Of a stretch of DNA of 64,000 nt, positions 43,893-48,562 are shown one piece after another. Within the stretch, counting starts at the first letter, position 1, and each line of letters begins with the position of its first letter. This DNA is from Candidatus Peregrinibacteria bacterium (GTDB lineage Bacteria; Patescibacteriota; Gracilibacteria; UBA1369; UBA12473), in assembly GCA_018659585.1 (NCBI GenBank), contig JABJMC010000028.1:36539-100538 (forward strand), written 5' to 3'. Both the position numbers and the translations under genes were made by a program. The notes beneath the pieces were generated by a model that did not search any database, was not told the origin of the DNA, and saw nothing but the letters and a program-made list of their open reading frames with translations.

Positions 43893-45221
43893 ATGGTCTC
43901 TAAAATTGAACAAGCCAAAGATGATCTGCAACAAGTTGCAGATAATGCTTATTCAGATGCTGTTGAGTTAGGGTTGGAATCAGACGCGCTAGTAAATGTC
44001 ACCATGGACGATGATCGCGGTTTCAGTTTTATGGCCAAAAGGGCTTATCAAGCTTCATCTTTTGGATACTCATCTCGGAAAGCTCTTAAGGCCGCGATGC
44101 TACTTTCCATTAAATTCATTGATGCCACCGGCGATTCACGGTTAAGAGTATATCCCGGAGACAGTCTTTCTATTAACCACAATGAAGCCATTCTCACGAG
44201 ACGTGAAGAAACCGGCGATGTAAGTTATACTGTTCAGTTTGAAGAAGAAGAAGCCTTACAATCTCATTTCGAGGCCGAAAAAGAACTAGTCCAAGCAGAA
44301 ACTCATCAAGCCCGAGAAGTAGTTCGATCAAATAATCAAATGCCATTTGTATTGGGATCATCAGATAATATTCGTCGCACTCTTGGAATAGGCGAAGAAA
44401 TGCTGGTAACTAGTACTCATATGGGCCTTCAAGTAGACCAGTATCCCGGATATGCTTTTGGAGATCTTAATTTTGGTGGAACTAACACTACGGAATGGTT
44501 AATTGGATACGCACCACATCTAAGACAAAATCAATTTATAGTTATTGGAAAAAAGAATCATAAAAAGATTGGAAGCGCTAATAATAAAGCTGGGCTCGAA
44601 AGCCTGTTACGCGCAAAAATCAGTGAAAACAATGAAGAAGAATCACTCCTTGCTATTATCGAGGACGCCCCGCCATCTGATGACCAAGGAATTGCTATTG
44701 CCGAAGAAGATTTAGATCAAGACGGGGTAGCTGACTTAACTATTGAAGATGCCACTCGGCCAATTCAACCAGCACCTCAAAATATTCGAGTGCAAGCTAC
44801 GGATTCTCATTCAGGAAAATCACTAGGAAGTGTTTCTCGAATAGATCAACAAAGAGGATTCAGTAGCACTAATCAAATAGACGCGCTACCTCAATCGTCC
44901 CAAAACCCAGTTAATAGCGTCATAAACAGTGTGTTTGTAGAATATAGTCAAAGGCACGGAGCTCCTCCAATAGTTGCCCGATCAGACACTTACTTTACCG
45001 ATCGCTATATGATTAGTTTAAGAGACCCTCTCTACGTTGAAATTTCTCGAGGAGGACAAACCCCTAGATACAAAGTTTATTATCGAAGAACTGTCTATAA
45101 CCCCTATGAAAGAGCTCAAGAAATTGTAAGTGAAAACGTCTTAACTGGAGGAAGAGATGGTTGGACTACAAGCTTGAAAGAAGTAGACAGATTGGTACGC
45201 CAAGAAGTTCTACACGCTTAA
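43893..45221 (+). CDS. Hypothetical protein
   Basis: 442 residues, family not recognised. An N-terminal helix (KIEQAKDDLQQVADNAYSDAV), a mixed region to about 230 (with SLSINHNEAILTRREETGD and GIGEEMLVTSTHMGLQVDQ), an acidic and Gln/Ser-rich middle (about 250-345), and a C-terminal beta-rich stretch (RYMISLRDPLYVEISRGGQ). The segment DLDQDGVADL near residue 275 looks like a calcium-binding dockerin/EF-type loop, seen once only. No signal peptide. It has its own promoter and sits just before the T-box leader. Confidence 0.6.
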   Translation: MVSKIEQAKDDLQQVADNAYSDAVELGLESDALVNVTMDDDRGFSFMAKRAYQASSFGYSSRKALKAAMLLSIKFIDATGDSRLRVYPGDSLSINHNEAILTRREETGDVSYTVQFEEEEALQSHFEAEKELVQAETHQAREVVRSNNQMPFVLGSSDNIRRTLGIGEEMLVTSTHMGLQVDQYPGYAFGDLNFGGTNTTEWLIGYAPHLRQNQFIVIGKKNHKKIGSANNKAGLESLLRAKISENNEEESLLAIIEDAPPSDDQGIAIAEEDLDQDGVADLTIEDATRPIQPAPQNIRVQATDSHSGKSLGSVSRIDQQRGFSSTNQIDALPQSSQNPVNSVINSVFVEYSQRHGAPPIVARSDTYFTDRYMISLRDPLYVEISRGGQTPRYKVYYRRTVYNPYERAQEIVSENVLTGGRDGWTTSLKEVDRLVRQEVLHA

Positions 45222-45224
45222 AAC

Positions 45225-45253
45225 TTGTCAAAACAGGTAAACTAACTTATAAT
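45225..45253 (+). promoter_or_regulatory. Promoter of the T-box leader
   Basis: TTGTCA, 17 nt, TATAAT, starting 4 nt after the end of the upstream gene. Predicted transcription start is near 45260. Confidence 0.75.
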
Positions 45254-45259
45254 AAGATT

Positions 45260-45452
45260 ACTTTTAAAAAATGCGTTTTTAGCTTAGCTATCACTAAGTG
45301 AGCAGGAGAAAGAAACCCTGAAAAGGGGAGTAGAATCTCTCGGTCGACACCGTCATCGTCTAAATCAAGCGCCCAGTTGACATTCGTCACACGGGAATCA
45401 AGGTGGTACCGCCCAAATATGGGTCCTTGGAAAGGACTCTATTTTTATAACT
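45260..45452 (+). promoter_or_regulatory. T-box riboswitch controlling ileS
   Basis: The conserved T-box AAGGTGGTACCGC (45400-45412) precedes a terminator hairpin and lies between a promoter and an isoleucyl-tRNA synthetase gene. T-boxes sense uncharged tRNA through a specifier codon in Stem I and the tRNA NCCA end at the T-box. Several short helices can be drawn upstream (CTTAG/CTAAG, CCC/GGG, CGGT/ACCG) and ATC triplets occur in the first hairpin loop (near 45290) and near 45356, but I could not settle the specifier loop. The leader is short (about 190 nt). Confidence 0.88.
45422..45446 (+). terminator. T-box attenuator terminator
   Basis: GTCCTT-GGA-AAGGAC followed by TCTATTTTT, 10 nt downstream of the T-box sequence: an intrinsic terminator expected to form when tRNA-Ile is charged. 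Confidence 0.8.
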
Positions 45453-45460
45453 AAATCCAC

Positions 45461-48400
45461 ATGTTTGATCCTGTTGATCCTAAGCAATCCTTCCCTAAAC
45501 TCGAAGAAGAAACTCTCAAATATTGGACAGCCAATAAAATTTTTGAAAAATCAGTAGAAAATCGTCCCAAGCAGGATGAATTCATCTTTTATGATGGACC
45601 TCCTTTTGCAACTGGATTACCTCATTATGGACATCTCCTCGCTGGAACTATGAAAGATGTAGTGCCTCGTTATTGGACTATGCGTGGTAAACGCGTTGAA
45701 CGTCGTTGGGGTTGGGATTGTCATGGCTTGCCAATTGAAAATTTAGTCGAAAAAGAACTCGGTTTATCTGGAAAAAAAGATATTGAAGAAAAGCATGGCG
45801 TCGGAGAGTTTTGTGAGGAATGTCGTAGTTCAGTTCTCAAATACACTGGAGAATGGAAGAAAACCGTGGATCGTACTGCTCGTTGGGTAGACATGGAAGA
45901 CCATTACAAGACCATGGACTTAAGCTATATGGAATCTATTTGGTGGGTTTTTGCGCAACTCTGGGAAAAAGAACTAGTCTACAAAGGACACAAAATCATG
46001 CATGTTTGCCCGCATTGTGTAACCCCACTTTCAAATTTTGAGGTTACCCTTGGCTATAAAGACGTCATGGATTTAGCCACAACCTGGAAATTCAAACTAA
46101 CAAATGAAGAAAACACTTACTTATTAGCTTGGACAACTACTCCTTGGAGCTCGCTTTCCACTATGGGGCTAGCCATTAGTCCAGATTTCACTTACGTCAA
46201 AGTAAAAGTAGGGGACGAACATTTAATTTTCATCAAAAATCAGCTTGAAAACATTATGAAAGGGATTGAAGAATACGAAGTAGTCGAAGAATTCACTGGC
46301 GATAAAATCGCTGGTCGCAGCTATGAACACGTCTTTCCTTGGTATGCAGAAATCGAAGAAGTCAAAGAAAACCCCAACACTTACAAAGTCTACGCCGTAG
46401 ATTATGTTGAGGAAGGAGAAGGAACCGGAATTGTTACTATTAATGGTTCTTATGGTGAAATTGATATGGAATCTGCCAAAAAGAATGGTTTACCCATTGT
46501 CATGGATGTAACCATGGAAGGAAAATTCAATGAATTAGCCGGACCATACGCTGGGATGGGCGTTAAAGAAGCCGAGAAAAAACTAGTTGAAGACAAATAC
46601 AAAGAAGGCTTAGTTTGGCGCAAAGAATCCTACAAACACAGCTATCCACATTGTTGGCGTTGCGATTCATTCTTACTTAACTACGCTACCTCAAGCTGGT
46701 TCGTAAAAGTAGAAGCCATCAAGGACGAAATGATTGCCGCTAACAAAACCATTCATTGGGTTCCTGAACACGTTGGATCAGGAAGGTTTGGAGATTGGCT
46801 CGAAAATGCGCGTGACTGGTGTATTTCTCGTAATCGTTTTTGGGGGACTCCTCTCCCAATCTGGGAAAATGAAGATGGTGAACGGATTTGTATTGGCAGT
46901 GTTGAACAACTCGCAGAATTAAGTGGCCAAAAAATTGATGATATTCATAAGCATAAAATCGATAACGTTACTTTTGAAAAAGACGGCACAACCTACAAAC
47001 GCATCGAAGAGGTCTTTGATTGTTGGTTTGAGTCTGGGGCTATGCCGTACGCCCAATCCCATTATCCTTTTGAAAATAAGGAAGAATTTGAGAAGAACTT
47101 CCCAGCTGAGTACATTGCTGAAGGCTTAGATCAAACCAGAGGTTGGTTTTACACTTTAGTAGTTCTCGGAGTCGCTTTATTTGGAAAATCACCGTTTAAA
47201 AACGTAGTTGTAAATGGTTTGATTTTGGCAGAAGATGGCAAGAAAATGAGTAAAAGTCTCAAAAACTACCCTGAACCAAAAATTGTTCTAGATAAATATG
47301 GAGCTGATGCTTTGCGCTTTTATTTAATGAATTCGCCAGCCGTTAAGTCTGAACCTCTTCGTTTTTCTGAAAGGGGAGTGGAAAATGTCGTCAAAAATGT
47401 AATTCTTCCTATCTGGAATGCTTATAGTTTCTTTGTAATGTACGCCAATATTGATAAATGGGAACCAAAAGCCGTTGATTCCGCAAAAATCAGCCAACTT
47501 TCCAATAAACTTGATCGTTGGATTCTTTCGGAACTACACACCTTAGTCAAACAAGTAACCGAAGAAATGGATGAATACAACCTTCAAGCACTTCGCCCAA
47601 TCTACCATTTTATTGAACAACTCACGAACTGGTATATTCGTCGTTCTCGACGTCGTTTCTGGAAAAGCGATAATGATCAAGATAAGGAGGAGGGATACCA
47701 AACTCTCTACACTGTATTAACCACTTTATGTCAGGTTATGGCTCCATACATGCCCCTTCTTTCCGAAAGCATTTATTGCAACCTCACCAACCAAGAATCT
47801 GTTCATTTAACAGATTGGCCAAATTTTAATAAAAAGGCTATTGACGAAGATTTAAATCAAGAAATTGAACTAGTAATGCAAGTCGCTAAACTTGGCAATG
47901 CTGCTCGTGCTCGCGCTAAAATTAAAAACCGCCAACCACTTCAAAAAGTTCAAATTGGTGTACCCGAGGCCCTGCGACATCTTTTACATGATGATCAATT
48001 CGAAGTTCTTAAAGAAGAACTAAATGTTAAGGAAATCGACGTGGCTGATGATCCGAGTAATATTGCCAAAACTGTTGTTAAGCCCAACCCTAAACTTCTT
48101 GGTCCTAAATTTGGGAAAGACGTGCAATTCATCATCCAGGAGGCCAAAAAAGGCAATTTTAAACTTCTAGAAGACGGCAATGTAAAAGTAGGGAAATTCG
48201 AATTAACAGCCGAAGAATTCAATGTTGGTTATGAAAGCCAAGAGGGGCTAGATGTGGAAAGTGATCACGGAATTGTCGTGGCTCTAGATGCTACCATTAC
48301 TCCGGAACTCAAAAAAGAAGGAATGGCTCGTGAATTAATCCGCACTATTCAAGATATGCGCAAAGAAGCTGATTATAACGTTGATGACCGCATTCAAATC

Positions 48401-48562
48401 TCTCTCCAAACAGATGGGGAGGCCCAAGAAGCTATCACTGAATTTCAAAAACTCATTGAAGAAGAAACTTTGTCCAAATATGAGGCCGATTTAACCAAGT
48501 CAGACCTTCAAAAGGAAATAGAAGTCGAAGATAGTAAAGTTCAGGTAGCCATGAAACGTTAA
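45461..48562 (+). CDS. ileS: Isoleucyl-tRNA synthetase, eukaryote-like type 2
   Basis: 1033 residues, class I. HIGH-type motif GLPHYGH, CP1 editing domain (TTTPWSSLSTMG), WNCISRNRFWG-like WCISRNRFWGTPLP, and KMSKSLKNYPEP. The KMSKSLKNYP form, the length and the C-terminal extension (about 850-1033, with VALDATITPELKKEGMAREL) match the type 2 IleRS of eukaryotes and some bacteria, rather than the 930-residue bacterial type 1 with a C-terminal zinc finger. Known type 2 enzymes tolerate mupirocin; that is family knowledge only. It is regulated by the T-box leader. Confidence 0.96.
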   Translation: MFDPVDPKQSFPKLEEETLKYWTANKIFEKSVENRPKQDEFIFYDGPPFATGLPHYGHLLAGTMKDVVPRYWTMRGKRVERRWGWDCHGLPIENLVEKELGLSGKKDIEEKHGVGEFCEECRSSVLKYTGEWKKTVDRTARWVDMEDHYKTMDLSYMESIWWVFAQLWEKELVYKGHKIMHVCPHCVTPLSNFEVTLGYKDVMDLATTWKFKLTNEENTYLLAWTTTPWSSLSTMGLAISPDFTYVKVKVGDEHLIFIKNQLENIMKGIEEYEVVEEFTGDKIAGRSYEHVFPWYAEIEEVKENPNTYKVYAVDYVEEGEGTGIVTINGSYGEIDMESAKKNGLPIVMDVTMEGKFNELAGPYAGMGVKEAEKKLVEDKYKEGLVWRKESYKHSYPHCWRCDSFLLNYATSSWFVKVEAIKDEMIAANKTIHWVPEHVGSGRFGDWLENARDWCISRNRFWGTPLPIWENEDGERICIGSVEQLAELSGQKIDDIHKHKIDNVTFEKDGTTYKRIEEVFDCWFESGAMPYAQSHYPFENKEEFEKNFPAEYIAEGLDQTRGWFYTLVVLGVALFGKSPFKNVVVNGLILAEDGKKMSKSLKNYPEPKIVLDKYGADALRFYLMNSPAVKSEPLRFSERGVENVVKNVILPIWNAYSFFVMYANIDKWEPKAVDSAKISQLSNKLDRWILSELHTLVKQVTEEMDEYNLQALRPIYHFIEQLTNWYIRRSRRRFWKSDNDQDKEEGYQTLYTVLTTLCQVMAPYMPLLSESIYCNLTNQESVHLTDWPNFNKKAIDEDLNQEIELVMQVAKLGNAARARAKIKNRQPLQKVQIGVPEALRHLLHDDQFEVLKEELNVKEIDVADDPSNIAKTVVKPNPKLLGPKFGKDVQFIIQEAKKGNFKLLEDGNVKVGKFELTAEEFNVGYESQEGLDVESDHGIVVALDATITPELKKEGMARELIRTIQDMRKEADYNVDDRIQISLQTDGEAQEAITEFQKLIEEETLSKYEADLTKSDLQKEIEVEDSKVQVAMKR

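Follow-up and report, generated by a model that had tools for sequence, protein, structure and literature searches.

T-box riboswitches are grouped into four classes, of which class III combines a short Stem I, without the interdigitated double T-loop motif (IDTM), with a required Stem II, and displays its specifier in an apical loop of five or six nucleotides; classes III and IV act mostly on translation (PMC10482949). Transcriptional T-boxes generally need a long Stem I with the IDTM, and the ultrashort Stem I form is associated with translational control (PMC7583486). In TBDB, the class II (translational) model was run only on Actinobacteria and on class I matches with a truncated Stem I (PMC7778990), so that short, terminator-bearing leaders may have been left unlisted. 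Here we describe a leader in a 64-kb stretch of Candidatus Peregrinibacteria contig JABJMC010000028.1 (the window, 64,000 nucleotides), located at 45269–45447, 5′ of ileS, the gene for isoleucyl-tRNA synthetase (IleRS). It is very probably a T-box riboswitch that is built like class III and works by transcription attenuation, features that textbooks assign mostly to distinct types.

Covariance evidence and anatomy of the leader

The default Rfam scan of the window did not report the T-box family RF00230, the score being below gathering. At a permissive threshold, RF00230 aligned to 45267–45431 over all 219 model positions with 37.1 bits (E 6.2e-7; gathering score 93). A search of the whole genome returned the ileS leader again (E 6.5e-7) plus one other match, L002, which was rejected as spurious as it has no T-box core. 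A second model, R1, was built from ten ileS leaders that belong to other families of Patescibacteria, with the window excluded from the alignment, and comprises the base and hairpin of Stem I, the lower and upper helices of Stem II and the antiterminator helices A1 and A2. A first MAFFT alignment, of mixed aspS and ileS leaders, had misaligned Stem I, and ileS leaders with a hexaloop were used instead. Across the window, R1 scored the leader at 66.1 bits (E 1.9e-14), the next best match reaching 15.2 bits. The full-length RF00230 match, taken together with that of the independent model, confirms at the level of sequence that 45269–45447 is a T-box leader beyond chance, and both scans bear out the original prediction, which had recognised a T-box from the letters alone.

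The R1 seed shows changes on both sides in 17 of its 24 pairs, with 91% of cells paired (38–53% when the partners are slid), and the covariation observed in the ten leaders was matched by none of 500 shuffles. The structure was drawn from the same ten sequences, which somewhat favours this result, although the excess is still large. The homologous Stem I helices (helices 1 and 2) have 100% of cells paired and both-side changes in six of seven pairs; A1 and A2 (helices 5 and 6) also covary. Given the E value from the independent model, and with the main motifs intact (among them AUC, the S-turn, UGGUACC and a terminator that competes), it is extremely improbable that the leader resembles a T-box by chance or is a decayed one without function, even if the RF00230 score below gathering and a single-sequence fold no better than that of shuffles (z -0.6) lean that way.

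The region 45225–45460 contains promoter-like hexamers, the structured leader, the T-box core and the terminator, followed by the start of ileS; all parts of the complete attenuator that had been proposed were located there. The features, in window positions, are as follows.

45272–45304, + strand: ultrashort Stem I, from the R1 match; homologous helices covary
45290–45292, + strand: putative specifier AUC (Ile), in the terminal hexaloop CUAUCA (45288–45293)
45305–45340, + strand: Stem II, lower helix GGAGA/UCUCU, upper helix CCC/GGG
45341–45352, + strand: Stem IIA hairpin CGGU/ACCG, from folding and comparison with the RF00230 alignment
45372–45395, + strand: Stem III, CCC/GGG with inner UGAC/GUCA, from folding
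45400–45428, + strand: antiterminator, A1 AAGG/CCUU, bulge UGGUACC, A2 GCCC/GGGU
45421–45447, + strand: intrinsic terminator, GGGUCCUU-GGA-AAGGACUC plus UAUUUUUA, from folding and a terminator scan
45225–45253, + strand: sigma-70-like promoter TTGTCA-17-TATAAT, a consensus match only
45461–48562, + strand: ileS, isoleucyl-tRNA synthetase of eukaryote-like type, 1033 residues (TIGR00392, DUF5915)
43893–45221, + strand: orphan open reading frame (ORF) of 442 residues between dcd and the leader, from family and homologue searches

Stem I is 33 nt long, with neither a distal part nor an IDTM. Its base helix UGC/GCA pairs 45272–45274 with 45302–45304, and its hairpin GCUUAG/CUAAGU (5–6 bp) pairs 45282–45287 with 45294–45299. 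Between the promoter and Stem II there is no room for a long Stem I with an IDTM and an internal-loop specifier; the Stem I that the original prediction could not place is this ultrashort one. The AUC triplet lies in the terminal loop of Stem I, not in an internal loop, and is followed directly by a conserved purine, A45293. A count over 128 kb gave 10 NNATCR hexaloops on a stem of at least 5 bp, or ∼0.005 expected for any 60 nt. The internal loop of Stem I imperfectly resembles the kink-turn (K-turn) that joins Stem I to Stem II in class III T-boxes; its 3′ GA is present (UGA, 45299–45301).

In Stem II, AAGAAA (45310–45315) faces GAGUAGAA (45328–45335) to form an S-turn that is strongly conserved across the family alignment; a pseudoknot partner, IIB, is placed tentatively downstream of IIA. 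The T-box core AAGGTGGTACCGC occupies 45400–45412, and its bulge UGGUACC (45404–45410) separates A1 from A2. The UGGU of the bulge fits the ACCA 3′ end of tRNA; the cognate tRNA gene was not found in the assembly. The promoter hexamers, TTGTCA (45225–45230) and TATAAT (45248–45253) with a 17-nt spacer, match 11 of 12 consensus positions, but taken alone they are weak evidence, since shuffled sequence is expected to give 0.7 sites of at least 9/12 per region.

Specifier codon and downstream genes

The same short anatomy was seen before ileS, valS, aspS, glyS, tyrS and proS in other Patescibacteria. Relatives found with RF00230 in the same order have short leaders before ileS (L013, L017–L020, L022; L and G numbers denote loci and genomes) and aspS (L015, L016), and L023, from the same class as the window, has one before aspS. 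Each of these leaders carries a small hairpin whose loop ends in a codon plus a purine. In a set of 58 loci, retrieved for other genes and leaders, R1 gave 56 matches.

One codon was read per leader, one base before the loop end, in whichever hairpin close to the model start was most stable. NCBIfam gave the names of the downstream genes for representatives, and BLAST clusters gave those of the others; for aspS, either an Asp or an Asn codon counted as agreement. Of 64 leaders, 37 had a loop codon that fitted the gene behind it, compared with a mean of 11.3 and a maximum of 21 in 20,000 shuffles of the labels. Without ileS the fit was 21 of 33 (shuffled mean 5.4, maximum 13). This rule, anchored on the model match, replaced an earlier, looser hairpin rule (41/64 against a permuted mean of 24.8). 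Examples of the loop codons are GAC before aspS, GTC before valS, GGC before glyS and TAC before tyrS, typical loops being CUGACA, AUUAAUGUCA, GUGGCA and AAUUACA, respectively. Codon–gene agreement so far above shuffled labels gives strong support to the loop codon as the predicted specifier. The expectation that ATC would sit in a loop of homologous leaders is borne out as to the loop; the loop is terminal, not internal.

Three aspS loci (L145, L182 and L186) have AAC (Asn) in the loop of a short T-box, and their sister leaders have GAC (Asp). The aspartyl-tRNA synthetase (AspRS) of L145 and L186 is of the non-discriminating aspartate--tRNA(Asn) type, and aspS T-boxes may sense either substrate of a dual-specificity AspRS. 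At L024, a short T-box with an AUC (Ile) loop precedes thrC (threonine synthase, of the isoleucine precursor pathway), and at L149 (G267:C3:25376-25700) a tandem pair of T-box matches precedes glyS.

Regulatory output and proposed mechanism

The terminator hairpin (45421–45439) is followed at once by TATTTTTA. Its fold has an energy of -9.8 kcal/mol (z -2.3), that of the antiterminator -10.7 kcal/mol, and the two structures overlap, the 5′ arm GGGUCCUU of the terminator being the 3′ strand of the antiterminator. In a strict scan of 78 leaders, 37 had a terminator directly behind the T-box, that of the window among them, as against 42 of 390 shuffled stretches; the same scan found none in three ileS leaders whose records are labelled Acidimicrobiia and Acidobacteria. 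No ribosome site overlapping the hairpin was found at normal distance from the ileS ATG. The scan result and the lack of such a site together suggest that the output is transcriptional. The same aptamer could instead have the translational output of class III in Actinobacteria, with the 3′ hairpin gating ribosome access, and the terminator arm AAGGACUC could indeed mimic a Shine–Dalgarno sequence. We regard this as improbable, as the hairpin scores as a terminator with TATTTTTA directly behind it, AAGGA lies ∼25 nt 5′ of the ATG, beyond the normal ribosome-site distance, and the ileS leaders that the same model picked up in Acidimicrobiia are without any terminator.

In an attenuator of this kind, the Stem I hexaloop would present AUC to the GAU anticodon of tRNA-Ile while the leader is being transcribed, and the Stem II S-turn would clamp the codon–anticodon duplex, as there is no elbow-binding distal Stem I. 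With uncharged tRNA, pairing of ACCA with the UGGU of the bulge would stabilise the antiterminator (45400–45428) and polymerase would enter ileS. With charged tRNA, the amino acid would block ACCA pairing, GGGUCCUU would pair with AAGGACUC and transcription would stop at the U-run. That tRNA binds, that its charging matters and that regulation runs in this direction are all predictions.

Several observations weigh against a functional class III attenuator. RF00230 scores the leader at 37.1 bits, well under its gathering score, and the 5′ strand of the K-turn is degenerate (GUUUUUAG versus GAUGA in relatives such as L136). The terminator is modest, with 8 bp, one G-U and an A interrupting the U-run. 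In about two-fifths of the leaders the specifier rule does not hold or gives an ambiguous reading, partly owing to a crude hairpin picker. A tRNA family scan and two patterns did not find tRNA-Ile(GAU) in the assembly. Finally, ileS of G001, a genome of the same family, has no T-box leader, and the leader is hence dispensable.

Pattern matches in G010 and G022 were rejected as tRNA-Ile(GAU), being a CAU-type tRNA that a group I intron interrupts. At these loci (L298 and L299) an intron of ∼300 nt divides the tRNA gene in the anticodon loop; that of L299 matches RF00028 at 56 bits, and ARAGORN misses the split gene. By reading of the sequence, the tRNA appears to have a CAU-type anticodon and to be tRNA-Ile2-like.

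Distribution, history and relation to known classes

RF00230 matched 128 of 380 sampled Patescibacteria genomes, 13 of them above the gathering score, and R1 matched 77 of 287. T-boxes are not rare in the candidate phyla radiation (CPR), where the original prediction had taken one to be exceptional. No open-access paper describing T-boxes in Patescibacteria was found, which is not proof that none exists. Within the window's order, R1 matches and a plain motif check concur at every ileS locus; one of the positives, L283, has a marginal score (E 0.06) with the motif in place.

The window IleRS matches TIGR00392 at 901 bits from the ATG at 45461 and bears a C-terminal DUF5915 domain, its relatives being spirochaete, lentisphaere and chlamydia-type enzymes. 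We take such an enzyme to be what is called type 2; on these relatives and the DUF5915 domain, that reading seems sound, and the T-box with a putative Ile specifier stands before a type 2 IleRS as first proposed. When 78 IleRS proteins were placed in a tree, those of the order formed one clade (99/98), except for L017, and the window protein was sister to that of G001 (97/92). The IleRS is native to its order, and the transfer of the gene suggested earlier is unsupported, given this sister relationship to a same-family genome within the order clade.

Mapped on the IleRS tree, presence or absence of the leader requires at least nine changes. G001 has dcd a short way upstream of ileS; the window has dcd, the orphan ORF, the leader and then ileS. 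The orphan ORF, with no family match and no homologue in 39 relatives, is probably a unit separate from the ileS leader. Either the leader was kept here and lost elsewhere, or it was inserted here, perhaps by moving horizontally without the gene; the IleRS tree does not separate the two. Its acquisition from outside the phylum by horizontal transfer, together with or into ileS, would accommodate the patchy presence (13 of ∼75 ileS loci in the order, about one-sixth), the number of changes, and the tight dcd–ileS junction of L029 and of L239 (whose junction is identical with that of L026), where dcd abuts ileS with no T-box between. Such an origin is nevertheless unlikely, as the enzyme groups with its own family and order, and as short T-boxes of the same anatomy occur phylum-wide, so that repeated loss, or a source within the phylum, would be enough.

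The IleRS of L017 (G003) falls outside the order clade on a long branch and has its own short T-box; it looks a better candidate for transfer than the window ileS. Ten genomes (G006, G011, G015, G018, G026, G034, G042, G045, G048 and G053) encode an IleRS of ∼1220–1280 residues, with ∼195 extra residues inserted near position 488–494 of the window protein (perhaps an intein or an extra domain). Further T-boxes in the order, mostly with long leaders (L003–L009, L012, L014), precede genes named by eye as argininosuccinate synthase, ornithine carbamoyltransferase and acetylglutamate kinase-like, which suggests that arginine biosynthesis is under tRNA control in CPR bacteria.

We lean towards the view that the minimal class III T-box of Patescibacteria is a general, transcription-terminating tRNA sensor for Ile, Val, Asp/Asn, Gly, Tyr, Pro and perhaps Thr, rather than a translational device confined to ileS. 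If so, co-transcriptional sensing would not need an elbow-binding distal Stem I. In the kinetic argument, a long Stem I with the elbow-binding motif catches the tRNA before polymerase reaches the terminator (PMC7583486); ultrashort leaders with terminators across a phylum make that argument directly testable. They would also offer a readable amino-acid starvation circuit for uncultured CPR bacteria, about whose gene regulation very little is known.

Among described systems, the class III ileS leaders of Nocardia farcinica and Mycobacterium (PMC10482949, PMC7583486) resemble the window leader in having a short, IDTM-free Stem I that shows AUC in an apical loop of six nucleotides, a Stem II that contains an S-turn, IIA, the T-box bulge and ileS downstream. 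The window leader differs in ending in an intrinsic terminator, not a translation switch, in its degenerate K-turn 5′ side, in its occurrence in Patescibacteria and in having relatives in the phylum that also serve aspS, valS, glyS, tyrS and proS. Class IV, with an intermediate Stem I, likewise has ileS, AUC and a Stem II with S-turn, but its Stem I is longer, its specifier lies in a side bulge and it has no terminator; the Acidimicrobiia loci L080 and L096, the latter matched by R1 at 46.7 bits, look like this kind. With class I (the Bacillus subtilis tyrS type, RF00230) the leader shares its attenuation logic, S-turn, antiterminator plus terminator and T-box sequence, whereas its Stem I measures only ∼33 nt. 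The leader would thus join the anatomy of class III with the output of classes I and II.
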